From positions 1-43,444 of the forward strand of contig JAFRKJ010000075.1 of assembly GCA_017431785.1 (NCBI GenBank): a stretch of DNA of 43,444 nt, in the 5' to 3' direction. This DNA is from Bacillota bacterium. GTDB lineage: Bacteria; Bacillota; Clostridia; Peptostreptococcales; Anaerovoracaceae. Under the pieces are notes generated by a model. That model was not told the DNA's origin, ran no database searches, and was given only the letters and a program-made list of their open reading frames with translations. How positions within the stretch are numbered: position 1 is the first letter of the stretch; every line of letters starts with the position of its first letter. Positions 3,439 through 38,427 of this stretch are shown piece after piece. Both the position numbers and the translations under genes were made by a program.

Positions 3439-5174
3439 TCTACAAACACACTCCCTCCTATGAACTCTCTGAGTATGGAGTTGTTTGGAACATCCGTATC
3501 GTCTTCAATCGTCTCAAACAGTCTGAAGAATCCCAACAGTCTGCGGGCTTCACCGTACTCAGGCTGATCCGGCGTGATCTCCTCAAGCAAAGGCAATGCG
3601 TACTTTTTCAGGAGACTTGTCTCATAGGCCAGCGTTGAATTGAAAAGTATATCCGCTTCCCCGTTGTAAGGGAAGATGTTCTTGTCTTCTCCGCCTCTGA
3701 CTTTTGGCCATGCCTCTATGGTCTGCGCCGCTGAATGGCCTCTGTATTTGTAATCGCGCACAAGTCTTCGGAGCAGTCTGGCGTCTGTCGTCGGGACTCT
3801 GTTGTGGATGTCTACGTTGATCTGCGCCAGAGGGCTGATGTAGATTTTGTATTTTGTTTCATCCGGAATCTGCTCTGTGAGTTTCCTGTTCAAAGCGTGG
3901 ATTCCTTCGATGACGATCAGCTGATCCTCATCGATCTTTGTCATTCTCGTGCCGAAGATCTTCTCCCCTTTGAGGAAGTCGAAGACCGGAAGGTCTACTT
4001 CCTTGCCTTCCAGGAGATCGTTCATATTGCTGCAGAAGAGATCGATATCGACTGCATTCAGGCTTTCGTAATCTTTCTCACCGTTTTCATCGACCTTCAT
4101 GTCCTCCCTGTTGATGAAGTAGTCATCTGTTCCCATATAAATCGGTCTGAGGCCGTTGACCCTGAGCTGTATGCAGAGTCTCTTGGCAAATGTCGTCTTA
4201 CCGGAGGATGACGGACCGGCGATCAGAACGATCCTGCGCTTCTTGCTTTTGATTTCATCAGAGATCTCCGCGATCTTCTTCTCGTGAAGCGCTTCCGAAA
4301 GGAGAATAGTGTCCTTGGCTCCGCCTTTTTTGATCAGATCATTTAAGTCAGCCAGATATCTGGTTCCCAGAAGGTGCAGCCATCTGTGTTCTTCGCTGAA
4401 AGCGCCGTAGATCTTGTTGTCATCGACGTATTCCGGAATCCTGTCAGGACTGCTGTAATACGGATAGCGCAGCAGGATTCCTTTGTGATACTTTCTCAGC
4501 TCGAACCGCTTGATATAGCCTGTCGACGGCACCATCGGTCCGAAGAAGTAGTTCACATAGGATTTGACTCCATTTTCCTCTGGAACATCGATCGTATAGT
4601 ATGCAGGCATGTATTCCGGATCTGTGATCTGATCCAGCAGGCGGGCCTTCTCATGATAGCCTGCTTCCTGCCAGATGCGCAGACCTTCTTCCATGGATAC
4701 TCTGCTTCTGCGGATCAGGAGATCCATGCGGACAAGTTCCTTCATGCGCAGTTCGATTTTCTCTACGACTTCCTCCGTCAGCAGTTCCTGTATCTCATCC
4801 TGCGCCGATTTAGGAAGTCCTCTCTGCGGACGAACGCGGGTGAAAAACCCCTTATTCAGGGAATTATCGATCTCCGCATCCGCATTTTCGACACCAAGCT
4901 GCGCAAATATTTCTTTGACTGCAATGATATAAATGAAGTTCAGGCTGCGCTGATACGTCAGATTCGCACCCTGTGTCCTCATATCCAAAAGCTCTACAGA
5001 ATCTCCTTCCTTCAACTCCTCTGTAAGCTCTGTATCTCTTCCATTCAAACTGGCCAGCAGGATGTCGTACTTAAAAGGACCCTTCTCTCTGATCAGGTCT
5101 TCAATGGTCATGCCTTCTCTGATACTCAGTTGTTCTCCGTCTTTCACGGTATCGTATTTCATCAAAATATTCAT
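3435..5174 (-). CDS. TGS-domain uridine-kinase-like nucleoside kinase
   Basis: The 579-residue protein combines an N-terminal TGS-like domain (about 5-70), a central segment related to the editing/second additional domain of threonyl-tRNA synthetase (about 75-230), and a C-terminal phosphoribulokinase/uridine-kinase P-loop domain. The Walker A GPSSSGKTT is at 320-328, followed by a DDYF motif and an IEGIHALN block. This fusion is widespread in Clostridia and is usually annotated as nucleoside or uridine kinase; its substrate is not firmly established. No ribosome binding site precedes the ATG. Instead a TATACT -10 box ends six bases before it, so the mRNA may be leaderless. A second ATG at codon 5 has no better site. 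It is the first gene of an operon with the PfkB-like and LUD genes. Confidence 0.87.
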   Translation of the reverse strand: MNILMKYDTVKDGEQLSIREGMTIEDLIREKGPFKYDILLASLNGRDTELTEELKEGDSVELLDMRTQGANLTYQRSLNFIYIIAVKEIFAQLGVENADAEIDNSLNKGFFTRVRPQRGLPKSAQDEIQELLTEEVVEKIELRMKELVRMDLLIRRSRVSMEEGLRIWQEAGYHEKARLLDQITDPEYMPAYYTIDVPEENGVKSYVNYFFGPMVPSTGYIKRFELRKYHKGILLRYPYYSSPDRIPEYVDDNKIYGAFSEEHRWLHLLGTRYLADLNDLIKKGGAKDTILLSEALHEKKIAEISDEIKSKKRRIVLIAGPSSSGKTTFAKRLCIQLRVNGLRPIYMGTDDYFINREDMKVDENGEKDYESLNAVDIDLFCSNMNDLLEGKEVDLPVFDFLKGEKIFGTRMTKIDEDQLIVIEGIHALNRKLTEQIPDETKYKIYISPLAQINVDIHNRVPTTDARLLRRLVRDYKYRGHSAAQTIEAWPKVRGGEDKNIFPYNGEADILFNSTLAYETSLLKKYALPLLEEITPDQPEYGEARRLLGFFRLFETIEDDTDVPNNSILREFIGGSVFVE

Positions 5175-5180
5175 GGATGT

Positions 5181-5209
5181 AGTATACCATAAAAAAAGGA
5201 GCTTGTCGC
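5181..5209 (-). promoter_or_regulatory. promoter of the uridine-kinase-like operon
   Basis: The minus strand carries a -10 box TATACT (5181-5186), a 17-base spacer and a weak -35 GCGACA (5204-5209). The -35 lies inside the stem of the upstream gene's terminator. The -10 ends six bases before the ATG, placing the expected transcription start at or next to the start codon. Confidence 0.6.
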
Positions 5210-5227
5210 ATACATGCGACAGCCCCT
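5191..5227 (-). terminator. intrinsic terminator of the YdbC-like gene
   Basis: On the minus strand, AGGGGCT (5221-5227) and GTCGCAT (5214-5220) pair with ATGCGAC (5205-5211) and AGCTCCT (5197-5203), with one bulged base and one G-T pair, followed by seven T. It lies about 44 bases past the stop codon at 5271 and overlaps the next promoter. Confidence 0.88.
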
Positions 5228-5270
5228 ATGAAAGTCTCCTGCTGTATTCAGCTGTTCTCATTCACCTGCT

Positions 5271-5648: not shown

Positions 5649-5713
5649 GATAATAATCTCCTTTCCTTCCGCCCCTTATTCAAATAATAAATGTTGCGTT
5701 TTGTAGCAGGAAT

Positions 5714-5742
5714 ATATTACCATTTAATGCAGTATCTGTCAA
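5714..5742 (-). promoter_or_regulatory. strong sigma-A-type promoter of the YdbC-like gene
   Basis: The -35 TTGACA (5737-5742) is a perfect consensus. It is followed by a 17-base spacer and -10 TAATAT (5714-5719) on the minus strand. The leader would be about 60 bases, ending in a strong ribosome binding site. The promoter starts just after the stop codon of the aminotransferase gene. Confidence 0.85.
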
Positions 5743-5746
5743 CTGC

Positions 5747-6991: not shown

Positions 6992-6992
6992 C

Positions 6993-8506: not shown

Positions 8507-8545
8507 CTTAACGGTCTATCTAAAATGAATCGGTCTAACCAAAAC

Positions 8546-12304: not shown

Positions 12305-14891
12305 TAATCGACTCGATCGTCAGGATAAGACCTTTGATAAACCCTGCCGGTCTGAAATTGAGCTCCACTTCATGAGTACCCGGATCCAGCTGCGCGCTGA
12401 TCCACGCATCGCCTGTGAGCTCCGTGATCTCCGTCTCCATGCCGTCTATCTTCATGGACCAGCCCTCTTCATAAGGCACAGACGTGACGAGTATTCCGCC
12501 ATTCGGCGCATTGACCGTTCCCTTGATGAAGGTGTCGCCTGCATCCGTCACTTTCATGAGGCTTGATGATATCATGTCGTAGGTTTTTGCCCACGCCTCT
12601 TCATCCAAGGTGCAGACATAGCATGTGATCCTTCCCGCATTACCTTCTTCGAAGCAGACCTTGATCTTGAACGTCTCCCCTTCCTTCATCGGACCGATAT
12701 TCAGGATCGAACCGCAGTCCGCCTGTACTGCCAGGTCTTCAGGATCGTCTTCACGCTCGATGAAAATCTCATCTGCATAGTCTGCCGCAACATACACATA
12801 GTACTTTTCATTTGTCGTGGCTTCGTACTCAATGGTGGCTGATGACTTGACCGCAGCGTCATGCAAAGTGCATTCGACTTCTGAATCACTGACATAAGCC
12901 GCAGTTACATTTTCACCTGATACGACGCCCTGTCCCATGTTATCGAAGACTTTTTCCACTTCTCCGTTTGTCGCCGCTCTCGCATAATCGTTCAGATTGA
13001 TGAACGGATTCGCGTCATATGGACTCCACGTTCTGATGGATTCCGGCAGCATATATCCGATGGACATCGGGTAATTGCTCTCGTAAAGTCTGGAATTTCC
13101 ATCGCTCTTTACATATTTGAAATCTGGATCTTTGATCTTCCTGTTCTTTGCGATCAGATAGTCGATATTGACCAGGCAGTTCGTGACCGGACTGGTCTCA
13201 TTGTAATTGAACCGGTTGCTGCCCGGATGTCCTTCCAGCCCAATGTGTTCCATCAGCGTAGTCGTATTGCAGTTCAGTGTTGAAGCAAACTGTCCCATTC
13301 CTCTGTAATGATATTTGGCCGGACAGTTGTGAATGAGCGGATCGTCGATCTCCATTCTGGCAAAACGCCCATTGCCGCCTTCCGCTATTGCACCGCCTTC
13401 CTTTCCTGCATATGCAGCAAGCCGTATGATGCTGGCCTTGTTTTCGTTGTATGTCTCCCTCGAGGAGTTCCCCATGGTATTGAAGTCCATTGCAGTCGTC
13501 GCGCCCAGCTCCGCCGCTACGACAAGGGCCAGTACAAGGATGAATTTCCGTCTGACCAGCTTTTGCTTTTTATAGAGCATGAGCAGGACTCCATAGACGA
13601 CCGTCAGCGCCAGACCGTAATACACAAATGTATTTATGTCGTCAACAGCATCGACCATGATCTTCTGGGCAAGAATATAGTACCCGGCAACGACCGCGAT
13701 GACTGCCGCGATACTCTTCGTCTTGATGCCGTCCATCCTGTTGAAAGCTCTGTACGCCATCGTCACAAGGAGGAAGCAGATCACGAATGAAAACCGGTGC
13801 GGCAGCTGATTCGGGAAGTGCATTCCGTGCCAGATGAAATCCAGTTTATTGATGTTGAGGCTCAGGAACATGAACACCAGAAAGGCGCCATGCAGAATCT
13901 TCTCTCTGAACGGAATCTCTCCTGATATGAAATAGCAGACGAGCATGACCAGAACCAGGAACCCGCAGCACAGATTCGGAAGCCCTTCAATATAGGTCAG
14001 ATGGGAAACCGGAAGCAGCTGATTGATCACATCCAACACGTCATAATACAGTTTCCACTCCTCCGGCATCTCCGATGAGAAATAGTATGCGTTCTGCATG
14101 CTGATGAAGGTAGGCAAAAGCATGACAGCCGACATTGCAATGCCGAGTATGGAAGCGCCGACCGCTTTCAGCGTTGTGATCGCGCATGCTTTCACGCCCC
14201 TGCCTCTGACGGTGATGAAATAGCTTACCGGATAGTAAACAAGAATAAAGATGCAGACCATGATGGCAATGTAGTAATTGCAGAAGACCATCAGGGCCAA
14301 TGTGACTGTATAGAGTGCGATCCGCCCGTCCTTGATCAGCCGGTTCATGCCCAGCATGCAGAGCGGCAGCAGCATCACAGCATCGAGCCACATAATGCAC
14401 CAGTAATAACCGATGGAAAAAGAGCTCAGCGCGTACATGCATGCGAACAGCATGGTCTTGACGCCGGCCTGTCTGTCCACCAGCATTTCATCGGGATAAT
14501 ACACATTCTTCAGATAGATGTACATGAAGCTCCCCGACAGTCCGATCTTGATCAGCAGGACGACACTTACGCCTTCCATGATCAGTGTCTTCGGGAACAG
14601 TACGAGCAGAAGGTTCAGAGGGCTGGCTCCATAGTAAGACAGGAGGCACCAGAAGTTGCATCCGCCTCCGCTGTTCCAGGAATAGAACAGGCTCCCGCCT
14701 TCCTGCAGCCTGCACTGCAGTTCACTGAGGAATGGGACATACTGATGATACATGTCGATGATCGCCAGCTGCTGCTCTCCGAAGGGATAAATTCCTGTGA
14801 ACGCAAAAACAAACACCAGTATAATCACCGGCATAAAGAACGCCCCGAAGACGTATCTGTTCAGTTTCAGGAATTTCAGGATCTTATTCAA
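12219..14891 (-). CDS. YfhO-family multi-pass membrane protein (GT-C-like glycosyltransferase)
   Basis: The protein is about 890 residues with roughly a dozen membrane helices in the first 480 residues, a large extracytoplasmic region and one C-terminal helix (about residues 850-870) before a basic tail RRRR. The early loop FTGIYPFGEQQLAIIDMYHQ, with its Asp, is the YfhO signature. Bacillus and Listeria YfhO/GtlB proteins attach sugars to lipoteichoic acid outside the cell. I place the start at TTG 14891, preceded by AAGGA at 8 bases; an alternative TTG at 14936 would add 15 residues but has no good site. It overlaps the end of the GT2 gene by eight bases, indicating an operon. Its 3' end lies inside the opposite-strand mocR gene. 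Acceptor and sugar are unknown. Confidence 0.88.
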   Translation of the reverse strand: MNKILKFLKLNRYVFGAFFMPVIILVFVFAFTGIYPFGEQQLAIIDMYHQYVPFLSELQCRLQEGGSLFYSWNSGGGCNFWCLLSYYGASPLNLLLVLFPKTLIMEGVSVVLLIKIGLSGSFMYIYLKNVYYPDEMLVDRQAGVKTMLFACMYALSSFSIGYYWCIMWLDAVMLLPLCMLGMNRLIKDGRIALYTVTLALMVFCNYYIAIMVCIFILVYYPVSYFITVRGRGVKACAITTLKAVGASILGIAMSAVMLLPTFISMQNAYYFSSEMPEEWKLYYDVLDVINQLLPVSHLTYIEGLPNLCCGFLVLVMLVCYFISGEIPFREKILHGAFLVFMFLSLNINKLDFIWHGMHFPNQLPHRFSFVICFLLVTMAYRAFNRMDGIKTKSIAAVIAVVAGYYILAQKIMVDAVDDINTFVYYGLALTVVYGVLLMLYKKQKLVRRKFILVLALVVAAELGATTAMDFNTMGNSSRETYNENKASIIRLAAYAGKEGGAIAEGGNGRFARMEIDDPLIHNCPAKYHYRGMGQFASTLNCNTTTLMEHIGLEGHPGSNRFNYNETSPVTNCLVNIDYLIAKNRKIKDPDFKYVKSDGNSRLYESNYPMSIGYMLPESIRTWSPYDANPFINLNDYARAATNGEVEKVFDNMGQGVVSGENVTAAYVSDSEVECTLHDAAVKSSATIEYEATTNEKYYVYVAADYADEIFIEREDDPEDLAVQADCGSILNIGPMKEGETFKIKVCFEEGNAGRITCYVCTLDEEAWAKTYDMISSSLMKVTDAGDTFIKGTVNAPNGGILVTSVPYEEGWSMKIDGMETEITELTGDAWISAQLDPGTHEVELNFRPAGFIKGLILTIESIIILLVATLLPAVLRRRRSQTVESDCNTE

Positions 14892-15879
14892 TATTTGATT
14901 CCTTCTCAACGTAGATTGGTCTGTTTTTTGTTTCAAGATACATTCTGCCTATGTACTCTCCAATGAGTCCAAGAATGGCGATGATGATTCCGCCGAAGAA
15001 CAGAATCAGGCAGATTGTAGACGCGTAGCCCGGCGTATCCTTCCCCATGACGATGGTCTTGATGATTTCCACGATCAGATAGATCGCAGATCCCGCGGCG
15101 ACGACTCCGCCGAAGGCTCCCGCAAATTTCAGCGGCGAATCTGCAAAATCTATAAATCCGTCGATGGCGTACTTCGTCAGACCCCATACGGTCCATTTGG
15201 TCTCACCTGAAATGCGTTTCACATTTTCAAACTCGACCCACTCTGTATCGAATCCAACCCAGGCGAAGATGCCTTTGCTGAATCTCTGTGTTTCCGGCAT
15301 ATCGGAGACCGCTTTGACCATGGCGCGGTTCATGAGTCTGAAATCGACAGCACCGTCTACGATTTCAATATCGCAGTACCGGTTCATGATCTTGTAGAAC
15401 AGTCTTGCAAAAGCACTGCGGATCTTCGGTTCTCCCTTCCGGCTGACTCTTCTGGCTGCCACGCTGTCGCATCCCGTTTCCTCCATCTTCCTGATCATTT
15501 TTCCAACCAATTCAGGAGGATGCTGCAGATCCGCATCCATGATCACCGCCAGGTCACTCGGTTTGCCGCCTTTGGTTCCTTTGGCGGAAGCCTTCAGTCC
15601 GGCATACATGGCTGCTTCCTTGCCGAAGTTTCTGCTGAAAGAAATGTATTTCACAGCAGTCAGTTCTTCTGCGCCTCTGTCCGCAATCAGCTTGATCTGT
15701 TCCAGCGTACCGTCCGTACTTCCGTCATCTACAAAGATGTAGCTGAAATCATAGCTGCATGCAAACTCGCTGCTCTCCTCAATGTGTGCGGCAGCAGCCT
15801 GAACAGCCTCATAAAAAGCTTCTATATTTTGTTCCTCATTGTAGCAAGGAACGATGATGTCTATTCGTTTACATTCCAT
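14884..15879 (-). CDS. family 2 polyprenyl-phosphate glycosyltransferase (CsbB/GtrB-like)
   Basis: The 331-residue protein has an N-terminal GT-A domain with IIVPCYNEEQNIEAFYEAV, the DDGSTDGT motif, DADLQHPPELV (metal/nucleotide-sugar binding) and two C-terminal membrane helices (about 250-280 and 285-315). This is the layout of enzymes that load a sugar from a nucleotide donor onto undecaprenyl phosphate. The ATG at 15879 is preferred to an upstream in-frame ATG at 15942. The longer version would translate the promoter and a terminator palindrome, whereas a -10 box TACAAT ends exactly six bases before 15879. No ribosome binding site is visible, so a leaderless mRNA is likely. The next gene, YfhO-like, probably uses the lipid-linked sugar. 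Confidence 0.9.
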   Translation of the reverse strand: MECKRIDIIVPCYNEEQNIEAFYEAVQAAAAHIEESSEFACSYDFSYIFVDDGSTDGTLEQIKLIADRGAEELTAVKYISFSRNFGKEAAMYAGLKASAKGTKGGKPSDLAVIMDADLQHPPELVGKMIRKMEETGCDSVAARRVSRKGEPKIRSAFARLFYKIMNRYCDIEIVDGAVDFRLMNRAMVKAVSDMPETQRFSKGIFAWVGFDTEWVEFENVKRISGETKWTVWGLTKYAIDGFIDFADSPLKFAGAFGGVVAAGSAIYLIVEIIKTIVMGKDTPGYASTICLILFFGGIIIAILGLIGEYIGRMYLETKNRPIYVEKESNIE

Positions 15880-15885
15880 GGGCTT

Positions 15886-15915
15886 ATTGTACGGCTTTTG
15901 AATAAATATTGTCAA
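15886..15915 (-). promoter_or_regulatory. promoter of the GT2-yfhO unit
   Basis: On the minus strand a perfect -35 TTGACA (15910-15915) is followed by an 18-base spacer and -10 TACAAT (15886-15891). The -10 ends six bases before the ATG at 15879, so transcription should begin at the start codon. Confidence 0.82.
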
Positions 15916-15925: not shown

Positions 15926-15953
15926 AAAAAAGAGACCCGCAATTGCGGGTCTC
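15926..15953 (-). terminator. intrinsic terminator after the saccharopine-dehydrogenase-like gene
   Basis: A perfect 22-base palindrome (15932-15953, arms GAGACCCGCAA/TTGCGGGTCTC) is followed on the minus strand by six T (15926-15931). It lies 21 bases past the stop at 15975 and directly upstream of the next promoter. Confidence 0.92.
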
Positions 15954-15974
15954 CTGTAATGCTTTTGCATTATT

Positions 15975-27800: not shown

Positions 27801-30800
27801 GATAGAGTTTAACAACGCAGTTACCGTTCAGTGAGCCGAGTCTCGTCTTGGTAGCTTCCCAACCCTTCGATAAAACGGATTCTTCACCTTCATCTTTTGT
27901 GACTGTCCATTTGCTTACCTGGTATTTATCAGGAAGGTTGACTGCTTCGAAATCGATCGGGATGTAAGCGGTGTACGTTCCGCCATTGACAACATCCACG
28001 CCTTCTGAAGTTGCCTTGATCACATCGCCGGCATTTCCTCCGTCATCGGTAATGACTTTATATGAAATGCTGACCTTCTTGAAATCAGCAACTTCGATTT
28101 CAATACTGATATCTTCCTGAACACTATTGATTCTGTAAGTCGGCTTGCTCCCCTGAAGGACAGTGGATCCGGAACCCTTAACCAGTCTCCACTCCTTGAT
28201 GATCACATTATCCGGAAGGTCTGTCGAAATTGTCAGTGCGCTTCCCTTCTCCGCTGTTCCGTTGTTCAGGAGACCATCAATGTTGATTTCTCCGGCAGGA
28301 GATTCAACGCCGCCTTCATCCACGAACTTCACGGAAACGGTGTAGAATTCTTCCTGTTCAAATTCTACGGTTACCTTCGTGTCGGCATCCAATCTCAGGA
28401 GAATCAGGTCTTTGCCGGTGAACACTTCTCCGTTTTCCTTATATACTTCCGGTTCTCCGCCGCCCTTAGCAATGTTCCACTGCTTGACCACATATCCTTT
28501 ATCCGGCTTCGCCGTCAGAATGGTACTCTTTCCATTGGCAACTGTTTCCGGTGAAGTCATTTCGCTTCCTGCACTGCTATCCTTATAGTAGTGGCCTTCC
28601 ACAGAGCCGTTTGCTTTTGCTTCAAAGGTCAGCTTAAATGCGGCAGGTTCGAATGTCGCCTTGGCTTCAACGCCCCTGGACAACGCAGTGATGACGATGT
28701 CGTCACCGTCGATGATATAATCTGTACCCTCCTGCAGCATGTTGCCGCCTGCATCCTTCACGATCCACTCGTCAACCTTGAAGTTTTCATCCGGTGTTGC
28801 ACTAAGGGTGACCATCGTGCCTTCGAGCAGTGGTGCACCACTGTCAAATGCTCTCTTGTTATCTCCCTGGAAACCTCTGACCGATCCGTTGGATCCGGCC
28901 TCGTACTTCACGTTGAATACGCCGGCTTCCACAATGAAGTATCCTTCTTTGAACGTTACGTTATACTTTGCCTTGAACTCATTTACAGCGTTCTGGCTCG
29001 CTTCGTCTGTCTTGTATTTCAGTTCCGTTCTATAGGTGCCTGCAGCTGAATCTTCCGTTAAGGAAGGTGTTGAAGTCAGGTCGAAGACATCCTCGATCTT
29101 GATTTTGCCCTGATCTGCTGCCGCAAATGCCGGTTTCGAATCATTATCCTTATAAGCTGCGACTACATCCGTGATGTCCGGGACTTTCTCAGGATTCGAT
29201 GCAGCTGAGAGGCCCTTCTTCGATGGTGCTGTCAGCGTAATCGGGCGCTTGATCACATTGACCGTACAGGACGCGATCACCTTCCCATCTTCGTATGCGA
29301 CGAAGACGTGTTTTCCTGTTGCAACCGGAGTGAAGGTGTTATCTTCAAGGTCTACTTCCTTCAGTGTATCTGATAAATCATTATATGCGACCTGATAACT
29401 TACTCCATCATAGGAAGTCATATCTGTATGGTTCTCTTCGCCCGATGGGTCGAAGTTAATCTGGTCAAGCTTCAAGCTGATCTTATCGCCGTAGACCGCG
29501 CCATTCGCGGAGAGCGCATAAATGCTTGCAGCATCCGGATCCTCAGTATTTTTATCAAAGGCATAATAGATTGTTGTTCCGGAAGAAGTGATTGTTGATT
29601 CGTTTCCTCCGAATACCGCCGTGATCTCATAAGTCCCCGGTGCTTCCGGTGTCCATTTTGCGGTTGCCGTTCCTGCGCTGTCTGACGTCGCATTGACGGA
29701 TTTCACCGCGTTGGTATTCGTATTGCGGATGTTGAAGACAACAACGCCTTCCTTGCTTGCGCCTTCACTCTTTGGTGTTACTGTTGCTATAAGAGTGACT
29801 TCATCGCCGCCTTCTGTCACAACCCGGTCTACCATATTCGGAACATCATCCTGAACGGTTTCACCCGGTACAGCATTGATGGTTCCGTCTTCTGAACTGT
29901 AGGTACCATCCGGAATGATTTCTGTCAGCACCTCCAGCGTACCATCTGCCTTCTTGTAGTAATAGCTTCCGTCATTCGGATCTATGGACTTATATACCTT
30001 GTAACTATCATCCGTATAGTTGTCTCCATCAGGTACCATGACAAGATATGTATTCCCTCCGATCGTCTCGGTCGCAACAGTATATGGTTCTGCAGCGCCC
30101 TGAAGGAGGTCGTTCACCATATTATCAGTGATCTTTGTGAGTGCATAATTGCCTTCCCCGTCTGGTCTGTACTCGTACCAGTTCAACGTGTTGTCTCTGA
30201 AATACAGTTCAGACTGGAGAGTGAATACGTCATATGTTTTGCCGTCCAGTTCAGCGGTAACCTGATTCTCTCCAACAGTGAATAGCAAATCGTCAGATGA
30301 CAGGTCTGTCCAGATATCCGGATCAAGACCTGATGTGAAGTGCTTTTTCCCCTGCGTCAGCTGCTTCATTGCTTCCGCTGTCATCGCATCCTCGTTGAAA
30401 CCGGTCAGCGCATAATAATCATTGGTATCTTTGAGATTGTAGATGTATTCCGGGTCCGGATCGTCAGACGCTTCATTCTTGACCACAATGAATGTGTACG
30501 TGTCTTCACCGATCGTCACATCGATCTCCCGATCGATCTTCTTGGTACCGTCCTGAACGGTCTGAACCTCAGACTTGCTCGCCCAACCGCGGTTCTGTCC
30601 CTGGAATTCATTCGGATCTCTGCTGTCTGTGTTGACGGCAGAAGCAGTCGTATCTGTTGTCGATCTTCCAACATGGAGGGTTGCAATATCACTGTATATA
30701 TTGACCTTCTGACTGGATCCTTTGATCAATTCACCAACGACGACTCTGTATTGATAGTCATCCATATCATTGGTTACGTTTGGCAGCGTTAATGTTGATG

Positions 30801-33800
30801 TCTTTACTCCATTGACCCATTTGTTGGTCTCCGGATCTTTCTTTTGCCACATATACGTAATCTCTGATGCGTTCTCGCTCGGTTTTGCCGTTACCGAGAA
30901 CGTGGCTGTTTCACCGGTCAGAACGTACTGGTCCTTAGGCTGAGATGTAATGATCGGCATCTCGGAATCGCCCAATGTCGTTGCTGCGACCGGATTCGTG
31001 TACATGGAGTATTCGACCCTACTCTCCTCGAGCTTATACGCCCGGACGGAGAACTGATACTCTGTTTCCGGGGAAAGCTTGTCCGCTGTGAACTTGGTCG
31101 TATTCGCATCCGTACTGCCTAAGTACACGTATTCCGATCCAGTAACAGGATCGTCGATATACTGATAAACCTCATAACCGGTAGGTCTCTTGTATCCCTG
31201 TTCCCAATCAACGACAATGGTGTCTGTCGTGACGGATTCAATCCTGACATCCCTCGGAATGCTGAGCGGTTCATCGACCTCTGTGACGATATATCCAACG
31301 ACCGGAATCTCCTGTGGTTTGTCACTTGAGCCGACAGTATCGGACCATGTGGCCAGCTGCCATGTGAACCCATATTTCAAACCGCCATCCACTTCCGGAG
31401 GTGAGGCTACGGATCCGCTCTTTGTTACCGTGTGCATCTTGGTGGTAGATTCGCCACCGCCCCAGCTTCCTCCGATGCTGGCACCCCACAGCATCTCAAA
31501 CCCATTGCCTGCGCCTTCAGCGCTGAATCCATACTTGAGCGTTCCCTCGAGGGAATTCGTATAGGTCTGTGAATCTGTGGTTCCGTTACCCATCTCAAAT
31601 GCCTGTGCCGTGGTGTAGGATCCATCATTTTCCACTCTCCAGGTCTTAGGGTTCTCGGTCGTAGTAACACAATTCTGAAGTCCGATGTTGGATTTCGGAT
31701 AAGAATCCGGCTGTCCCGGTACACAGCGCTCGACACCGGAAGAACCTGTCGAAATCAGATAATCATCCGACTTGGTCGGATCTGTCTTGACCATTTCATT
31801 GTATTTATCAACGTTCATGACCATCATGGCCGGCTCTCTCGGAATTCCAATGGCCATATTGTGCTTTTCCAAATCGCCTTTGCCATTTGGTGAATATACA
31901 TCGTAGTGGTACATGACGACCGGTGTTCTGGTCAGAACGACTTTGTTGGTCTTACCGGTATTCTCTACTTCCCAGCTCCATGATTGTGTTGTTTCTTTTT
32001 CATATTCCCATGCCCATTCATGGGTAAAGCTTGCCTCAGTAGAAACCTTCAGGCAGCTTAAAGTCAGATCGGCACTTACGACGACACCTGCCGATACGGA
32101 AGAACTCGTCGTGGTGCTGTGACCTTCTTCATACGACTTTCCTATTGATGTAGAGCAGTTATCGCCATATCCATATCCCGCTTCATCCAGGTCTCCGAAA
32201 TACGGTGCGGCCTGAAGAAGTGCCATAACCTCCGGATCTGCGTAGGTATATTCCTTGCTCTTGTATTCAAAAATTTCTGTATCATTATCTGTGTCCACGG
32301 CTGCAATCGCAATGGCCGGGTCATCGCTCTTTGCCGTCCAGTCAACGAATGTCTTGCCATCGCGCGATCCGCCGTTTTGGGTACCGGACTGCAGGAACAC
32401 TTTTCCGCCGGATTCTTCATCCACAGCGACCTGGACGATGCCCTTCTTCTCCTCCACTGTATAACCGGCATAATATACGCGGTATAGATACTTCTCTACA
32501 CTATCCTGCTTATATCCGGCCGTCCACAGTACCTGTTCTACGCCCAGCTCGTTGGAATCGAAATTGCCGGCAACGGCCTCATCAAACCAGGTGTTCGATA
32601 AAGAGGTGCTATCACCCATGCCGTTATCCGATTCGCTCGCTACATCTGCTGTTTTGACTGCGGTGAATTTGGTGCCGTCATGATCGTAGAACGTACCGTT
32701 GAGGAAAATGCTTTCTTTAGCATTTCTTCCGTTCATCGCAACGCAGCAAAGTGCCGGCGGCCCTTGCTGGTCATCTCTGTCATTGTATGTGCCGACTCCA
32801 TCCTCTGTGAATGGGTCAAAAGCCAGGAACTGATAGGTGGGATCGCTGTATCTTCCTTCTTTTCCCGGTGTGTATTTAATGGTTGCAGTCAGGAAGTTTT
32901 CGTCTCTGACCCTATCCCTGTCTCCCGGGTTCTCCGATATTTTCGAATAAGTATAGAAGCCTGCCAGAACGATTTCCGGGAACCCGTCATAATCCAGGTC
33001 TCCGCAGGAAATGTCACACGCCCTCATATTGAACTTCGTTGTTCTGTCGTCTTTTTCAGGGTCTTTCATGTTACCAGTTTCCAGATACCACATCTGCGAA
33101 GGATATCCGCTTCTGGCATGATTGTAGAGCCCCAGTTTGGTCGCTCTACCGCTAAAGTTCGCACTATCGCTGTCCTCTTTGATGTCGCCAAAGTAGGTTG
33201 CAATCAGCAGGTCGTCGATACCATCCCTATCGATGTCATCCGCTTCCAAATTGCACTGCACCATGGCATTGGCCATTCTCTTGTTGGTGGCACTGTATTT
33301 TGTTGACAGCTTCCAAGCCAGCGTCCCGACCTGATCTTCAAGTGAAATATCTCTGATCTTTTTTAAATTCTTTCCGTTCAGGATTCGGACGTATGACCCG
33401 TCTCTATCCGGAACATAGACTGCGAGCTCATCTGCGCCATCTCCATCAAAGTCTCCGGCAGTGATCTGGAAATATGACTTATATGCCCACTGTTCGATAC
33501 CCTCGAACCATGAGGCATTATCTCCATCGCCTACATAAATACCTTCGATTTGTTTCTCTCCGCCAGTTTCTGCATTACGTTTAAATACGTTGATATAGCC
33601 TTTACTTCCATCACGTATTGCGAACTCCACTTCTGCTGTGTAGTTCTTCTTGCCGCTTGCGTATGCATCGTAGGCAACCGCATTGGTGAACCGTCCTGTT
33701 TTGTTTCCCGTGAAGTTCTTGATCTTGTCATCACCGTGCGGCGCTTTGATGTCATGAATACGGTTTTTGTTTTTGAAATTATAGACAGATGCCTGATACT

Positions 33801-34053
33801 TTCCCTTTTCCTGCCACGAAATGTACGTTTCGTGCTTGATACCGATTGGCTGTCTTCCCTGCCCATACGGGTTCTGCCCGTCGTTCGCATCGAAATCACT
33901 CGGCACCGAAATATCGAATCCGTACTGATCCTTTTCGGCAGCGCTAACCGTCATATGTTTTAGCGTGGAACTCATTGACGCAACAAAAATGATGCATATC
34001 AATACAGCAAAAATGCGTTTGATGAGCGTTTTATTGTCTGCTTCTTTAAACAT
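24877..34053 (-). CDS. giant secreted multidomain protein (FG-GAP, Ig-like, Fn3, InlB-type repeats)
   Basis: The 3058-residue protein has a signal peptide (basic start, hydrophobic residues about 12-30, likely cut near AVSAAE-type TVSAAEKD). Residues about 190-600 carry FG-GAP/VCBS-like calcium loops (DFDGDGADEL, DIDRDGIDDL, DLDYDGFPEI, DTDNDTEI) of a beta-propeller. Residues 632-720 and about 840-880 are rich in alternating Ser/Thr and aromatic residues, reminiscent of aerolysin-type beta-strands. Then come a fibronectin III domain (930-1026), an Ig-like domain (1031-1120), further Ig- and MBG-like domains (about 1405-1710), and roughly 1000 residues of InlB/bacterial-repeat modules with GSV and GYxI motifs (1711-2770). 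A second Fn3 (about 2871-2960) and a C-terminal Big2-like domain follow. There is no LPXTG motif. The AAGGAG site and own terminator suggest a single-gene unit. An adhesin or toxin-like role is inference. Confidence 0.9.
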   Translation of the reverse strand: MFKEADNKTLIKRIFAVLICIIFVASMSSTLKHMTVSAAEKDQYGFDISVPSDFDANDGQNPYGQGRQPIGIKHETYISWQEKGKYQASVYNFKNKNRIHDIKAPHGDDKIKNFTGNKTGRFTNAVAYDAYASGKKNYTAEVEFAIRDGSKGYINVFKRNAETGGEKQIEGIYVGDGDNASWFEGIEQWAYKSYFQITAGDFDGDGADELAVYVPDRDGSYVRILNGKNLKKIRDISLEDQVGTLAWKLSTKYSATNKRMANAMVQCNLEADDIDRDGIDDLLIATYFGDIKEDSDSANFSGRATKLGLYNHARSGYPSQMWYLETGNMKDPEKDDRTTKFNMRACDISCGDLDYDGFPEIVLAGFYTYSKISENPGDRDRVRDENFLTATIKYTPGKEGRYSDPTYQFLAFDPFTEDGVGTYNDRDDQQGPPALCCVAMNGRNAKESIFLNGTFYDHDGTKFTAVKTADVASESDNGMGDSTSLSNTWFDEAVAGNFDSNELGVEQVLWTAGYKQDSVEKYLYRVYYAGYTVEEKKGIVQVAVDEESGGKVFLQSGTQNGGSRDGKTFVDWTAKSDDPAIAIAAVDTDNDTEIFEYKSKEYTYADPEVMALLQAAPYFGDLDEAGYGYGDNCSTSIGKSYEEGHSTTTSSSVSAGVVVSADLTLSCLKVSTEASFTHEWAWEYEKETTQSWSWEVENTGKTNKVVLTRTPVVMYHYDVYSPNGKGDLEKHNMAIGIPREPAMMVMNVDKYNEMVKTDPTKSDDYLISTGSSGVERCVPGQPDSYPKSNIGLQNCVTTTENPKTWRVENDGSYTTAQAFEMGNGTTDSQTYTNSLEGTLKYGFSAEGAGNGFEMLWGASIGGSWGGGESTTKMHTVTKSGSVASPPEVDGGLKYGFTWQLATWSDTVGSSDKPQEIPVVGYIVTEVDEPLSIPRDVRIESVTTDTIVVDWEQGYKRPTGYEVYQYIDDPVTGSEYVYLGSTDANTTKFTADKLSPETEYQFSVRAYKLEESRVEYSMYTNPVAATTLGDSEMPIITSQPKDQYVLTGETATFSVTAKPSENASEITYMWQKKDPETNKWVNGVKTSTLTLPNVTNDMDDYQYRVVVGELIKGSSQKVNIYSDIATLHVGRSTTDTTASAVNTDSRDPNEFQGQNRGWASKSEVQTVQDGTKKIDREIDVTIGEDTYTFIVVKNEASDDPDPEYIYNLKDTNDYYALTGFNEDAMTAEAMKQLTQGKKHFTSGLDPDIWTDLSSDDLLFTVGENQVTAELDGKTYDVFTLQSELYFRDNTLNWYEYRPDGEGNYALTKITDNMVNDLLQGAAEPYTVATETIGGNTYLVMVPDGDNYTDDSYKVYKSIDPNDGSYYYKKADGTLEVLTEIIPDGTYSSEDGTINAVPGETVQDDVPNMVDRVVTEGGDEVTLIATVTPKSEGASKEGVVVFNIRNTNTNAVKSVNATSDSAGTATAKWTPEAPGTYEITAVFGGNESTITSSGTTIYYAFDKNTEDPDAASIYALSANGAVYGDKISLKLDQINFDPSGEENHTDMTSYDGVSYQVAYNDLSDTLKEVDLEDNTFTPVATGKHVFVAYEDGKVIASCTVNVIKRPITLTAPSKKGLSAASNPEKVPDITDVVAAYKDNDSKPAFAAADQGKIKIEDVFDLTSTPSLTEDSAAGTYRTELKYKTDEASQNAVNEFKAKYNVTFKEGYFIVEAGVFNVKYEAGSNGSVRGFQGDNKRAFDSGAPLLEGTMVTLSATPDENFKVDEWIVKDAGGNMLQEGTDYIIDGDDIVITALSRGVEAKATFEPAAFKLTFEAKANGSVEGHYYKDSSAGSEMTSPETVANGKSTILTAKPDKGYVVKQWNIAKGGGEPEVYKENGEVFTGKDLILLRLDADTKVTVEFEQEEFYTVSVKFVDEGGVESPAGEINIDGLLNNGTAEKGSALTISTDLPDNVIIKEWRLVKGSGSTVLQGSKPTYRINSVQEDISIEIEVADFKKVSISYKVITDDGGNAGDVIKATSEGVDVVNGGTYTAYIPIDFEAVNLPDKYQVSKWTVTKDEGEESVLSKGWEATKTRLGSLNGNCVVKLYLISRPVLTYGAGANGSIVNNEGLANGDYFYKNRVTDHSFTVKPAKGYEIDEINVTGANGDFVTGMVEGSSDVTLDVKAPEGGFNTDLDVNVTFSPIPAINVDYFLSDIGDGTHGKIKAEVDRNGDDAYVVSKDASADGGSLRDVYRGSVITITDNAAANYKISSWNMNGLEVLGNNNIPDYVSLGSSDDVLKINVTDELIGDIGVGKTLEVAALNNMKGSILTYGAKDNQGGSVIAYKDDGTNVKYGTIFGEEVKLNFKAAPYDNCDIIGWEVNGAVQDEDGSQFEYTVGPDQDVDVRAVFSELQPAPTCKLTYGAVSDDADPHGSVTAAISSMPDPPGKGYYSVADYAKGDLISSGKDLEKTTGVTLTATPEKGYLIKGWYSDPECTKELPGSAEELGKYNISSVSEDQSVYVKFAKIKEFTINVKKEGTGAGSFDVYVDGTKLSTDDFVSASDDAVSFEVARHSNVKVTAHPEGEFNYVAEWNGQTATSNSFELKDIVASGDIVMTILPAELIDIEFDLPSGYSSSEGTVQVGKGDAMKQINAINKRVRDVSGKDVIFTIVPHDNEMVDSWKVKYGDGSVEEGSALGLGNTLKISDLTSSVTVTVTMKDLAAYRLPVDGEHYTIADTKVEPDTLKGDQYENMIRENGTATFSVVPEDGYLIDAVSDRNTDKEAGSNILSIDKKADGGWKIRVSNVMVDIDLDVKAVKSYQIKIAKSSFGKITVVDANKKTIKSGSNVKEGTKLTVTATANTGCQFNFWNAPFKGAGKSVTTTVKSDITFGGEFVRIPITAKVTAQAKTATITWNKVYGADRYLVYRSTCNKAAFSKSYTKVSATKSSYKLTGLKQKGVYKIKVVAQKKVNGKYTNLSTSPVAHFVLTKNKNYTNPKAVTVSIASYGVKVGKTAKIYGKVTKVAAKKKLLSQKHEPTLRYKSSNKKVATVSAKGVITGKKAGRCTIYVSAVNGVWKTIVVTVK

Positions 34054-34279: not shown

Positions 34280-34288
34280 TGTTATAAT
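34280..34288 (+). promoter_or_regulatory. extended -10 promoter of the M3 peptidase gene
   Basis: TGtTATAAT (TG at 34280-34281, perfect -10 at 34283-34288) ends six bases before the ATG at 34295. No good -35 is seen, as is common for extended -10 promoters. The rest of the 34054-34282 gap is AT-rich. I find no gene there, and the promoter of the giant gene on the other strand is not clearly recognisable, although a TTGACC and a TATTAT are present at unsuitable spacing. Confidence 0.75.
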
Positions 34289-34294
34289 GACCCC

Positions 34295-36034
34295 ATGATG
34301 AAGAAAAAACTACTGACAATTACATTGAGCGTTATTCTCGCCTTTGCATTCACGCTCACAGGCTGCGGGGAAGAAGCGCCGATCGGCGCAGATGTTACGA
34401 AGAATGTTGCAGGCGTAGAATACTATCACTATGACCCTGCTGACTTCAACGCAATGTGCGACGAGCTGGAAGACCTGGCTACAGGCGATGATGCAAAAGC
34501 CATCATTGAGACATACGATAAGCTCTATGCGGAATGTGAGGAGCTGGATACCCTTTACTCCGTCATCTACGTCATGTACTCCACCGATGTAACCAATGAT
34601 TACTATTCCAAAGAGCAGCTGTATTCCTATGACAAGCTCGAAAAGTGCTGCGACAAACTCTGCGCTGTCTGCCGTAAAGTCACGGAAGGTCCTTGCGCGG
34701 AACAATTCAAGGAACATGTCGGCAAAGATGCCTTTGATGTCTTCGCGGAATATGAACCGATGAGCAAACGGGAGAAGGAACTCACCAAGAAAGAGAAGAA
34801 GCTCGTTGACGAATACTATGATGTGATCGAAGAAGCAGAGAAAGCCACTTATACCTACAAGGGTGAAGATTGGGATTTCGATAGGATAAACAGCGACGAG
34901 GGCGCAGAGCTGTCCATGTCAGATTATGAGGGCTACGTTGAGATCTTTGATGGACTGCAGAAGATCGCCAACGACTCTGCCGGACCGATTTTTCTGAAGC
35001 TGGTACAGATCAGAAACGAGCTTGCCAAGCTGAATGGCTACGATAATTATGCGGCGTATGCAGATGAACAGGAGTACTGCAGGGATTACACAGAAGATGA
35101 AATCCGGCAGCTTCATAAGGACGTAAAGAAGATCGCTAAACCCTACTTCATCAGTTATTACAACTCCTATGATGAGCAAGTCACATCCAATATGTCCACG
35201 AAAAAACTCCTGCAGACGCTGCAGAAGTACACTGCAGAGGTGGACGAGCTGGCTTCCTCTTCCTGCCAGCAGATGATCGATGAAAATCTCTTCTCGATCG
35301 GCGATGAATCCTGCCGCCAGGACGGGGCGTTTACCACATACATCCGCAAAGCAAATAGGCCGTTTATCTCTATGACCCTCGATGAACAGCGCGATTTCAT
35401 TGTTCTGTCTCATGAGTTTGGCCATTTCACAGAATACAACAATGAAACACAAACGAACATTCTGACTGACAGTGACAACATTGATCTGGCGGAAATTGCT
35501 TCCAACGGGCTCCAGGGATTGATGACACATTTCTACGATGAAATATACAAAGTGCAGAAAGACGCAGCCAAACGGGACGCTGTCGGTGAGCTGCTTGAAA
35601 ATGTCATCGACGGATGCGTCGAGGATGAATTCCAGCGCGCTGTTTATGAGAATCCGGATATGACCCTGGAGGAGATCAACGCTCTGTACGCAAAGACATA
35701 CTCCGAATACAATGAATGGGCAGAAGGGGATCCCGGATATTCATGGGTTTATATCAGCCACAACTTTGAGGCTCCAATGTATTACATCAGTTATACGGTC
35801 AGCGCACTTGCCGCGCTGCAGATCTGGAACCAGAGTACGAAAAACTTTGATAAAGGTGTGAAGACATGGGAGAAGTTTATAGACTACGGGACCTATAATC
35901 AGACATACCTCGATATCGTGGAAAAATGCGGACTGCTTAAATTTACAGACAAGGGCGCTGTGAAGAAAATCTGCAGGCCGGCTCTCAAAGCAATCAGCAC
36001 AGAGAAGGATTATAATTATGGCTTTGAAAATTAA
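34295..36034 (+). CDS. M3-family oligopeptidase-like lipoprotein
   Basis: The 579-residue protein begins with a lipoprotein signal (KKKLLTITLSVILAFAFTL) and lipobox LTGC (Cys25), so it is probably anchored outside the membrane. The rest is a helical M3/PepF-type metallopeptidase with the zinc motif HEFGH (H373, E374, H377) and a downstream LAEIASNGLQ segment providing the third ligand Glu. M3 enzymes are usually cytosolic, so a surface lipoprotein version is less common. No ribosome binding site precedes the ATG. A -10 box ends six bases before it, so a leaderless mRNA is predicted. A second ATG follows immediately. The 3' end overlaps the MBL gene by 17 bases, suggesting co-transcription. 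Peptide scavenging is the likely role. Confidence 0.9.
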   Translation: MMKKKLLTITLSVILAFAFTLTGCGEEAPIGADVTKNVAGVEYYHYDPADFNAMCDELEDLATGDDAKAIIETYDKLYAECEELDTLYSVIYVMYSTDVTNDYYSKEQLYSYDKLEKCCDKLCAVCRKVTEGPCAEQFKEHVGKDAFDVFAEYEPMSKREKELTKKEKKLVDEYYDVIEEAEKATYTYKGEDWDFDRINSDEGAELSMSDYEGYVEIFDGLQKIANDSAGPIFLKLVQIRNELAKLNGYDNYAAYADEQEYCRDYTEDEIRQLHKDVKKIAKPYFISYYNSYDEQVTSNMSTKKLLQTLQKYTAEVDELASSSCQQMIDENLFSIGDESCRQDGAFTTYIRKANRPFISMTLDEQRDFIVLSHEFGHFTEYNNETQTNILTDSDNIDLAEIASNGLQGLMTHFYDEIYKVQKDAAKRDAVGELLENVIDGCVEDEFQRAVYENPDMTLEEINALYAKTYSEYNEWAEGDPGYSWVYISHNFEAPMYYISYTVSALAALQIWNQSTKNFDKGVKTWEKFIDYGTYNQTYLDIVEKCGLLKFTDKGAVKKICRPALKAISTEKDYNYGFEN

Positions 36035-37241
36035 CATCATCCGGGGCCAGAACCAAATCGGCGGCTCCATCATCGAACTATATACAGATAGTACACGCAT
36101 CATTCTTGACGTAGGCATGAATCTCGGCGAAAGCAAACTGCACACTTCGGTGCCTGATGTCCCGGGCCTGTTCAAGGGCTATCCGATTTACGATGCGATC
36201 TTCGTGTCTCACTATCACTCAGACCATATGGGGCTCCTCAAGTATGTGCTGCCGGAGATTCCGGTCTACATGGGGCGCACCGCTTATCGCGTCGCACACG
36301 CTTTGAGCAAACACCAGGGCGGAAAACTCGGATTCCGCCCTGCATTTCTTGATGCAGAAAAGCCCGTCACCATCGGTGATATCACGGTGACACCGATTCC
36401 TTGTGATCATTCCGCGTACGGTTCATTTATGTTCCTCGTTTCTTCCGGCGGAAAAACGGTTCTGTATTCTGCGGATTTCCGTTCAACTGGCCGCAGTGAT
36501 TTCGATGCGCTTCTTGAAACGCTGCCTGAAGTAGACGTGCTTATCACAGAAGGAACCACCCTTTCCCGCGGGCTCGATTTTCACGAACCGAGCGAACAGG
36601 AACTCGAAGATTTTGCAGTGGAAACGCTTCGGGCACACAAGGGTCCGTCCGTGGTCTATCTCTCTGCGCAGAATGTGGAGAGAATCATCACTGCTTACAA
36701 CGCATCAAAGCGCACAAACAGAAGATTCATCATGGACGACCTCACCAGCACTGTTGCCGAAGCGGCCGGGTTGGACTTTGATGCCTATGTGCTGAGGCCA
36801 TCCCACTCCTTCGCAGATCTGGGAGAGATCGTCTCCACCAGCATGCATGGCCGTGAAAGCAGTCCTTACCCTGCCGTGTCTGACAAAAAGGCCTTCGGTT
36901 CACCGGACTTCCTTCTTTGTCTGACGCCGCAGAGTCTGATCAACTTCCGGAAGGTCGCACAGCGCTCTTCCTTTAAGGACAGCGTTCTGTTCTTCGCGCG
37001 CCGCGAAACGCATATGCTCAAACCGGCAACGGCAGCCTTTATTGCATTTATGGAATCATTGGGCGCTGTCGTTCCGACGCTCCATACAAGCGGTCACGCT
37101 GACAGCAATACAATAGACCGGCTGATTCGCGATGTCAGGCCATCGGTCATCATTCCGGTCCATACGGAACTTGCCTCCTGGTTCGCCCGTTATGAGGACG
37201 AATGTGAGGTCATCTATGATTGTCATGATTATGAAGTTTAA
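36018..37241 (+). CDS. MBL-fold/beta-CASP-like metallohydrolase
   Basis: The 407-residue protein has a metallo-beta-lactamase fold with the metal motif SHYHSDHMG (H65, H67, D69, H70), further ligands in IPCDHSAYG and YSADFR, and a C-terminal LHTSGHADSNTIDRL plus VIIPVHTE. That ending is typical of beta-CASP enzymes related to RNase J and CPSF, although it is shorter than RNase J (about 550 residues) and lacks the dimerisation C-terminus. RNA or nucleotide hydrolysis is likely; the substrate is unknown. An AAGGA site lies in the end of the peptidase gene, and the start overlaps it by 17 bases. Its stop overlaps the convergent CARF-nuclease gene by four bases. Confidence 0.87.
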   Translation: MALKINIIRGQNQIGGSIIELYTDSTRIILDVGMNLGESKLHTSVPDVPGLFKGYPIYDAIFVSHYHSDHMGLLKYVLPEIPVYMGRTAYRVAHALSKHQGGKLGFRPAFLDAEKPVTIGDITVTPIPCDHSAYGSFMFLVSSGGKTVLYSADFRSTGRSDFDALLETLPEVDVLITEGTTLSRGLDFHEPSEQELEDFAVETLRAHKGPSVVYLSAQNVERIITAYNASKRTNRRFIMDDLTSTVAEAAGLDFDAYVLRPSHSFADLGEIVSTSMHGRESSPYPAVSDKKAFGSPDFLLCLTPQSLINFRKVAQRSSFKDSVLFFARRETHMLKPATAAFIAFMESLGAVVPTLHTSGHADSNTIDRLIRDVRPSVIIPVHTELASWFARYEDECEVIYDCHDYEV

Positions 37242-38392
37242 GGTCTGAGTCTTTCGATCAGCCGACCTTTCTCAAGATCACCAAGTTCAACAACTTCAAT
37301 ATTTAACTCAGCAGCTCTCATCCTCATGAGAGCTCTGTTTCTGCTTGCCGGAGCTGACGTTACGATCATCGCTCTGGAGCCTCTTCCTCCGAATCTGTCT
37401 CTGAGCACCGCGAGTTCGTTAAGGGCTTCTGTTCTGATTTCGCTGGTTTTGCAGCTGATGAACAACGGCGTTATCCCTTGAATGGCAATGACGTCGATTT
37501 CGTTGGTGACCGCATTCCTCTGGGTCATGCCGCCTTCCCAGTTGACAACAGCGCTGAGAACTACATCGTCGAAGCAACCCGCTTCAAGACATGCTCTGTA
37601 AACCTGCAGTTCCAGAACGGACCCGATATCCCGCAGCCAGAAGCGAACCGTTTCATCCGGAAAGTCGAAGCTGATGACATCATGTCCGATGTTGAGATTC
37701 CTGACCAATCCTGCGTTGTTCAGTTCACGCAGCATGCCTTCCTCTGCTGTCGCCGTACCGTGATCGACCCGAACCGTTCTCGGTCCCTCGGCATGTAGCG
37801 CTCCCACTTCCGATGAGGAAACCATCTGTATGTATGCAATCTGTCTTCTCCAGATCCTGCGGTACTTGCGGAAGATCGTAAACAGCGCGTCGATTTGAGA
37901 AAGCTTGTCCTTCAGCAGGTTGTTGTCTTCCCTTCCCGGGAGGAGCGTTCCTCCTGCCATGAGGAAGCAGGATTTCGTATCCAGCGTCACATTGCAGGCG
38001 AGGTTTCTGGCGAATGGAGCATTCTGAATCTCAAAGAATGAGTTCCTCTTGCGGCTGTACGTAAACACAGGCGTGTCTCCACAGGCTGCCCCTGCCGCAA
38101 AGAGCGACGCGTCAGTACCTCCCGATATATCGATGGCGCAGTCTTCGTGAGTGTCCAGAATGCTGCTCAATTGCTTTTCGACTTTGGCTGCATCGAGCAA
38201 ACTCACCGGGACGACGGTGATTCTGACCGGACAGTCCCTGTACTCGAAATACTTGCTGAGCGATTCCCGCAGCGCTTTGTCTGATACGGTCTCCGGCGGG
38301 CAGAGCATAATCAGTTCCTCCGGCCGGAACATCTCTGTTGCCAGAACATTTTCTATTGGTTTTTCATCATATAATTCGATCAGTGTTTTCAT
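37238..38392 (-). CDS. stand-alone CARF-nuclease-like protein (DUF1887, Card1/Can2-like)
   Basis: The 384-residue protein resembles Card1/Can2 (DUF1887): an N-terminal CARF-like Rossmann domain with the loop IDISGGTDAS (about 87-96), a linking winged-helix-like region (about 200-260), and a C-terminal restriction-endonuclease-like domain. The nuclease motif reads NEIDV (D300) followed by FISCKTS (K315), with an upstream Glu in VLELQ. In Card1 the equivalent is D-x-ECK; here the Glu is Ser, a variant I recall in other DUF1887 proteins. Card1 is activated by cyclic tetra-adenylate from type III CRISPR complexes, but no CRISPR array or cas gene is in this window. No ribosome binding site is well placed; a -10 TATTAT ends six bases before the ATG. 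Its 3' end meets the MBL gene. Confidence 0.82.
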   Translation of the reverse strand: MKTLIELYDEKPIENVLATEMFRPEELIMLCPPETVSDKALRESLSKYFEYRDCPVRITVVPVSLLDAAKVEKQLSSILDTHEDCAIDISGGTDASLFAAGAACGDTPVFTYSRKRNSFFEIQNAPFARNLACNVTLDTKSCFLMAGGTLLPGREDNNLLKDKLSQIDALFTIFRKYRRIWRRQIAYIQMVSSSEVGALHAEGPRTVRVDHGTATAEEGMLRELNNAGLVRNLNIGHDVISFDFPDETVRFWLRDIGSVLELQVYRACLEAGCFDDVVLSAVVNWEGGMTQRNAVTNEIDVIAIQGITPLFISCKTSEIRTEALNELAVLRDRFGGRGSRAMIVTSAPASRNRALMRMRAAELNIEVVELGDLEKGRLIERLRP

Positions 38393-38398
38393 AGTAAA

Positions 38399-38427
38399 AT
38401 AATACCCCTTAACTGCTGCAAATACAA
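38399..38427 (-). promoter_or_regulatory. candidate promoter of the CARF-nuclease-like gene
   Basis: On the minus strand -10 TATTAT (38399-38404) lies six bases before the ATG, with a weak -35 TTGTAT (38422-38427) at 17-base spacing. This again predicts a leaderless message. The -35 region is close to, but does not overlap, the strong divergent promoter at 38450-38478. Confidence 0.55.

Follow-up and report, generated by a model that had tools for sequence, protein, structure and literature searches.

The stretch of DNA analysed here, referred to as the window, comprises 43,444 nucleotides of a Bacillota bacterium (Anaerovoracaceae, Clostridia; assembly GCA_017431785.1, contig JAFRKJ010000075.1, positions 1 to 43,444). 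It holds four genes for which leaderless mRNAs, that is, messages beginning on the start codon itself, had been predicted in an initial annotation: a uridine kinase, a family 2 glycosyltransferase (GT2), an M3-peptidase-like lipoprotein, and a CARF nuclease. At all four starts, a −10 promoter hexamer is followed by a gap of six bases and then by ATG, and each hexamer, gap, and ATG was found exactly where the annotation had placed it. We refer to this arrangement as N6 and to gaps of seven, eight, and nine bases as N7, N8, and N9. A Shine-Dalgarno (SD) sequence was defined as an exact match of 4–8 bases ending 4–12 bases upstream of the start. By this rule, no SD was detected at any of the four starts, in line with the annotated lack of a usable ribosome binding site.

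The uridine kinase gene (3435..5174, minus strand; ATG at 5174) encodes a TGS/ThiS-like N-terminus and a uridine kinase domain (PRK, PF00485, E = 1.8e-18); the N-terminal ThiS match lies just below the Pfam cut-off. Its −10 hexamer TATACT (5181..5186, minus strand) is of the extended type with TG one base upstream, and the gap occupies 5180..5175. An SD is also absent from the in-frame starts within the first 180 nt. A terminator-like hairpin belonging to the gene upstream (5204..5221, minus strand) adjoins the promoter; the 41 nt around it fold with −19.8 kcal/mol and a z-score of −5.4. The closest named relatives of the protein come from metagenome-assembled genomes titled Clostridiales, Clostridia, or Firmicutes, and the farther ones include Hornefia and Aminicella, which NCBI places in the Anaerovoracaceae, Clostridia.

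The GT2 gene (14884..15879, minus strand; ATG at 15879) encodes a domain matching PF00535 (E = 1.8e-28). As this domain begins at residue 8, there is little room for a later start. The −10 hexamer is TACAAT (15886..15891, minus strand), and the perfect −35 hexamer TTGACA that had been annotated is present at 15910..15915 with a spacer of 18 bases, so that the two hexamers carry 11 of 12 consensus bases. Here too, a terminator-like hairpin of the upstream gene (15930..15955, minus strand; fold of the 56 nt around it, −20.2 kcal/mol, z-score −5.75) lies next to the promoter and adjoins the −35 hexamer.

The M3 lipoprotein gene (34295..36034, plus strand; PF01432, E = 8.2e-9) is preceded by TATAAT (34283..34288, plus strand) within the extended −10 element TGtTATAAT, and the six bases are followed by two consecutive ATG codons. 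The CARF gene (37238..38392, minus strand; ATG at 38392) encodes a Card1-like nuclease (PF09002, E = 7.8e-10) and carries the hexamer TATTAT at 38399..38404 (minus strand).

The six-base spacing across the genome

The assembly consists of 2.72 Mb in 96 contigs and is rated 81% complete with 5% contamination. We sampled 40 stretches plus the window, which amounts to 805 kb (30% of the assembly) with 646 genes called by a home-made gene caller, and divided these into 298 genes with no or a weak SD and 348 SD genes. The −10 weight matrix describes sigma-70 promoters in general and was left unfitted, and the test was repeated with a rule allowing one mismatch in the hexamer.

Among the 298 genes with no or a weak SD, the weight matrix gave 14 matches at spacing 6 and 0–2 at each of the spacings 2–5 and 7–12; over spacings 0–14 apart from 6, the counts were 0–3 each. 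The 348 SD genes gave one match at spacing 6, with an ATG lying 21 bases before the called start. With the one-mismatch rule, N6 was found in 14 of 314 upstream regions of genes with no or a weak SD, and none of 1000 dinucleotide shuffles of these regions reached this number (mean 1.65, maximum 6). The exact hexamer TATAAT before open reading frames of at least 100 codons occurred nine times at spacing 6 and never at spacings 2–5 or 7 in the first 443 kb. Over the whole assembly, TATAAT-N6-ATG was counted 55 times, compared with 63 for N7 and N8 together, which agrees with the sample, though more weakly. Hence, the scan for an N6 excess over shuffled sequence that had been proposed in the initial annotation does reveal such an excess in the 30% of the assembly covered. 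Taking about 12 of the sample cases as true, we estimate by extrapolation that the class comprises about 40 genes, or about 2%.

Two further checks are independent of the spacing scan, which used neither the start codon nor the initiator base. An AUG start codon would be expected to predominate among leaderless starts. At spacing 6, the openings were 17 ATG, no GTG, and 4 TTG; at spacings 2–5 and 7–12, they were 2–7 ATG, 0–4 GTG, and 0–5 TTG. The excess at spacing 6 thus concerns ATG and not GTG or TTG. The second check concerns the transcription start, for which a pyrimidine-purine step across −1/+1, the YR motif, is preferred (PMC4782308). A pyrimidine at −1 was present in 32 of 39 cases at N6 versus 61 of 124 summed over spacings 4, 5, and 7–10, as expected if transcription begins on the A of ATG.

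For the window itself, the initial annotation had described most of the other genes as having strong AGGAGG-type sites, which is overstated. Of its 29 called genes, 13 have an SD match of at least 5 bases, five have a match of 4 bases, and 11 have none. N6 genes make up 4 of 29 in the window versus 11 of 617 in the rest of the sample (Fisher p = 0.003), a comparison that involves a window chosen because of these very genes. No Rfam match above the cut-offs was obtained for the window. Its minus strand also encodes (24877-34053) a protein of 3058 aa that contains InlB-type, Big, fn3, and FG-GAP repeats and is probably a giant surface protein.

The ratio of TATAAT-N6-ATG to the mean of N7 and N8 was 1.75 in this genome, 1.26 in 36 pooled members of the genus, 0.89 in 97 genomes of the family, and 0.76 in 24 genomes of the order. 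We rejected these raw counts as a phylogenetic test; the trend fits, but the GC content differs between the groups. The family genomes G076, G145, G070, G115, G141, G081, G101, and G114 have a ratio at least as high as this genome, and given these eight genomes, other genera of the family may possess leaderless sets of their own.

Combining the sample with the pattern loci of the whole assembly, we listed 31 candidates, including the four window genes. A pyrimidine at −1 is present in 29 of them, and 14 have the TG of an extended −10. A fifth candidate in the window, at 36071 on the minus strand, is taken for chance. Twenty of the 26 candidates outside the window were scanned against Pfam, and 18 gave a family. 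These include DNA polymerase III alpha (dnaE), AddB, a member of the uracil-DNA-glycosylase superfamily, Lgt, a CCA-type nucleotidyltransferase, HypA, acetolactate decarboxylase, ABC and MFS transporters, and LuxR- and AraC-type regulators. Two pairs of divergent genes are both predicted to be leaderless. At L049:4346-4400, a DUF6873 gene and a uracil-DNA-glycosylase-like gene are separated by 55 bp, and both have a −10/N6/ATG of their own. In the second pair (L009:1468-1512), a CCA-type nucleotidyltransferase gene and a gene with a Met_synt_B12 domain lie 45 bp apart; their −10 boxes are separated by 21 bp, and hence each −35 zone would overlap the −10 of the other promoter.

Conservation of the gap among orthologs

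The starts of the four genes were compared with those of their orthologs. From the wider class, we added dnaE (L049:16402-16414, −10/N6/ATG, predicted leaderless), which was chosen because its N-terminus is well fixed. Loci cut by contig ends (L140, L149) as well as L302, L244, L246, and L255 are omitted from the counts.

For the uridine kinase, the start was read in 30 of 38 matched genomes of the genus, with one of the 30 loci cut off. The 29 readable loci comprise 13 with N6, one with N7, and 15 with neither. In all 13 N6 orthologs, TG precedes the hexamer, which reads TATACT at 12 of these loci and TATAAT at the remaining one. Of the 15 remaining loci, 13 have an SD match of at least 4 bases at an in-frame start in the vicinity, with the best-scoring −10 positioned 11–63 bases away. 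Among 28 loci from the family's other genera, N6 at the aligned start was found in none; one of them (L287) has a hexamer with two mismatches before an upstream ATG. In a set of named genomes, N6 was present at 7 of 78 readable loci, all with at least 62% identity.

For dnaE, the start was read in 30 of 41 matched genomes of the genus. TATAAT-N6-ATG with no SD at that start was found in 13 of these loci; among the remaining 17, an SD match of at least 4 bases is present in 16. In 28 loci of other genera, N6 occurs in none and an SD match in 25. Since a distant dnaE homolog (about 33%) is also present in most genomes, essentiality is not claimed for this dnaE.

CARF orthologs are present 15 times among 41 genomes of the genus, and nine of them, with at least 80% identity, have TAnnnT-N6-ATG and no SD of 5 bases or more. 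Their hexamers are TAAAAT (three), TATTAT (two), TACAAT (two), and TATAAT (two), and the six-base gap has seven different sequences. The other six orthologs (44–47% identity) lack N6; three of these have an SD match of at least 5 bases and three a weaker GAGG-type match.

Among 23 GT2 loci of the genus, N6 was found in 11, N7 in one, and N9 in two. This count includes the unreadable L088 and leaves out the distant homologs L094–L100 (at most 46% identity). In five of the 11 N6 loci, the ATG precedes the aligned start by 3, 8, 8, 12, or 15 codons without any change in the six-base gap. The two N9 loci (L080, L093) have an ATT or ACT codon at the usual six-base point, and it looks as if their start has shifted by one codon. 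We also considered a leaderless mini-open reading frame, or short leader peptide, before GT2 in L087 and L089–L092. By eye, the stretch reads as the end of the upstream gene, and the candidate was rejected.

The M3 orthologs were counted without the distant homologs L247–L260 (at most 34% identity), one of which, L248, has TACAAT-N6-ATG. In a further locus (L239, genome G015), TATAAT and six bases are followed by ATC, and by eye, the next in-frame ATG downstream lies behind the SD-like sequence AAGGGTGG. This locus looks like a leaderless start lost through a point change.

Taken over the orthologs, the six-base gap is kept while the letters of the −10, the bases of the gap, the upstream DNA, and the N-terminal length of GT2 vary. 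The N6 loci of the uridine kinase, CARF, dnaE, and GT2 cluster among the nearer relatives. In the leadered orthologs, the best-scoring −10 lies at 11–74 bases from the start.

Trees were built with a quick protein method; eight loci, taken from the 28 of other genera, served as outgroup. In the uridine kinase tree, 14 leaderless rows fall on one side of a branch with an SH-aLRT support of 96, equivalent to one change. In the dnaE tree, 13 leaderless rows likewise fall on one side of a branch with a support of 91, which is below the 95 mark, again equivalent to one change. The simplest reading is one conversion for each gene, probably through leader loss in an ancestor that was SD-led. Leaderless dnaE was found in all 11 readable genomes of the leaderless uridine kinase set, in none of 10 with a leadered uridine kinase, and in two of nine in which the uridine kinase start was not read (Fisher p = 1.4e-6 for 11/11 versus the pooled 2/19). 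This co-occurrence does not demonstrate a common cause, since shared ancestry alone can produce it. A bolder idea, which we regard as unlikely, is that translation initiation changed throughout one sub-clade of the genus. Several unrelated genes including dnaE would have shed both leader and SD at roughly one branch of its history, which would suggest ribosomes or initiation factors more tolerant of a 5′-terminal AUG, and leader loss may then have let divergent genes pack so closely that their core promoters overlap.

Predicted leaderless transcription and competing explanations

The leaderless mRNAs put forward in the initial annotation are the best reading of these data, given the excess in the genome and the six-base gap of the orthologs. 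Very probably, promoters of the sigma-A (housekeeping) type place +1 on the A of ATG in the four genes. The resulting mRNAs would have neither a 5′ leader nor an SD, and the ribosome would bind the 5′-terminal AUG directly. Selection acting on the six-base gap would maintain such genes as a small class. The promoter geometry, the excess, the preference for ATG, the initiator base, and the conservation are all features of the DNA itself; the transcription starts and the mode of translation are predicted from them. Among these lines of evidence, the ortholog comparison argues most strongly for leaderless starts.

Several observations weigh against this reading. N6 is present in four of nine readable M3 orthologs of the genus, which makes M3 the weakest of the four genes, and its near relatives G008 and G014 have TATAAT 40 bases before the ATG, corresponding to a leader of about 34 nt. 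For the N6 promoters of M3 and CARF, no −35/−10 pair was obtained in the consensus scan. Another promoter-like match lies about 140 nt upstream of M3, at a level near the shuffle expectation. For CARF, an alternative match TTGTCA-18-TATTAT (38456..38427), likewise near the shuffle expectation, would give a leader of about 28 nt. Seven of the nine N6 orthologs of CARF carry a TG that, by eye, is missing from the gene in this genome. The CARF gene here also offers a later in-frame start, an ATG lying 84 bases downstream and having a 5-base SD match, although the orthologs keep the upstream start. For GT2, 12 of the 23 loci are without N6, and beyond the N7 and N9 cases, these number nine, mostly behind another gene. 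In one of the leaderless dnaE orthologs, it is a −10 at 43 bases that scores best. At the genome level, the raw excess is modest and not unique, the ratio of 1.75 being reached by 8 of 97 family genomes. In small, underpowered samples, the excess at spacing 6 was not seen in six members of the genus (2 of 303 genes) or in ten outgroups (2 of 208 genes; the short contigs L216, L218, and L219 omitted).

The choice of the transcription start can shift by a few bases. In some genes, RNA polymerase might start a few bases to either side of the A and produce near-leaderless messages with leaders of 1–4 nt, as the N7 and N9 orthologs of GT2 and the N7 ortholog of the uridine kinase would allow. We consider this unlikely, as no other gap comes close to six in frequency and the enrichment of a pyrimidine at −1 is strongest at N6, and such messages would be functionally nearly the same class as leaderless ones.

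It is less likely still that the N6 promoters are real but minor, with a second promoter upstream yielding a leadered main mRNA. In C. phytofermentans, genes of this kind generally have a further upstream start together with a typical ribosome binding site (PMC5171806), and the promoter-like matches upstream of CARF and M3 and the dnaE ortholog with its −10 at 43 bases point the same way. Unlike the C. phytofermentans cases, however, the four genes have no SD. Moreover, the terminator-like hairpins end directly before the uridine kinase and GT2 promoters, so that an independent promoter would have little space for a leader, and among the nine N6 orthologs, the full upstream CARF pair is seen by eye in L221 and L223 alone. 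Chance AT-rich hexamers before ATG codons with wrongly called starts are a very improbable explanation for the class. One or two of the 14 sample cases are expected to arise in this way, but the shuffles, the spacing controls, the ATG preference, the initiator bias, and the ortholog conservation argue against it; for M3 alone, a chance hexamer may be the explanation. Leaderless transcription thus remains the preferred reading for the four genes.

Relation to known leaderless genes

The geometry described here resembles the TA-led genes of Zheng et al. (2011), who predicted leaderless genes in 56 of 209 Firmicutes genomes with an average of 4.2% (PMC3160421). There, TANNNT lies about 12 bp before the start, several low-GC genomes show the form TAtAAT with a preceding TG, and changes between SD-led and leaderless genes among related genomes have already been described. 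The main text of that study contains no terms beginning with "Clostridi". Our analysis differs in that single genes were traced through one genus, in which the gap is kept while the hexamer changes.

In streptococci, 8.6–9% of the messages are leaderless and strongly conserved; 8.6% of the S. pyogenes mRNAs are leaderless, and 81% of these are so in S. agalactiae as well (PMC6431027). Those starts were mapped experimentally, in another bacterial class and with a larger share, whereas ours are predicted from sequence. Translation from a 5′-terminal AUG by pre-formed 70S ribosomes is described for other bacteria (PMC6431027).

The initial annotation regarded leaderless messages as less expected in Clostridia. 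This is fair, but their occurrence there is not new (PMC3160421, PMC9045289, PMC5171806). Potentially leaderless starts make up 2–3% of the mapped starts in three solventogenic Clostridia strains (PMC9045289) and 4% in C. phytofermentans, where the ribosome binding site is generally retained (PMC5171806). Fifteen leaderless genes are reported for C. difficile and 212 leaderless transcripts among the protein-detected genes of C. acetobutylicum (PMC7438776, PMC4533764). These figures rest on TSS mapping or RNA-seq. The organisms belong to the same bacterial class, and the share is likewise a few percent of the starts. The difference from C. phytofermentans is that a ribosome binding site and an upstream start are generally kept there, whereas no SD is left in our four genes. 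In a limited literature search directed at Anaerovoracaceae and gut Lachnospiraceae, we found no report on leaderless genes in the present group. The kind of gene and the mechanism are already known from other bacteria; what this limited search did not find in print is this lineage and the matched sets of led and leaderless orthologs.

In Clostridia with mapped starts, leaderless messages are thus few, and in one of these organisms, they mostly have a ribosome binding site. Start callers that lean on the SD can misplace starts in genomes of this kind; our own gene caller misplaced that of the uridine kinase. A conserved leaderless set in uncultured Clostridia, together with SD-led orthologs in sister species, would provide a natural experiment on the passage from SD-led to leaderless genes.

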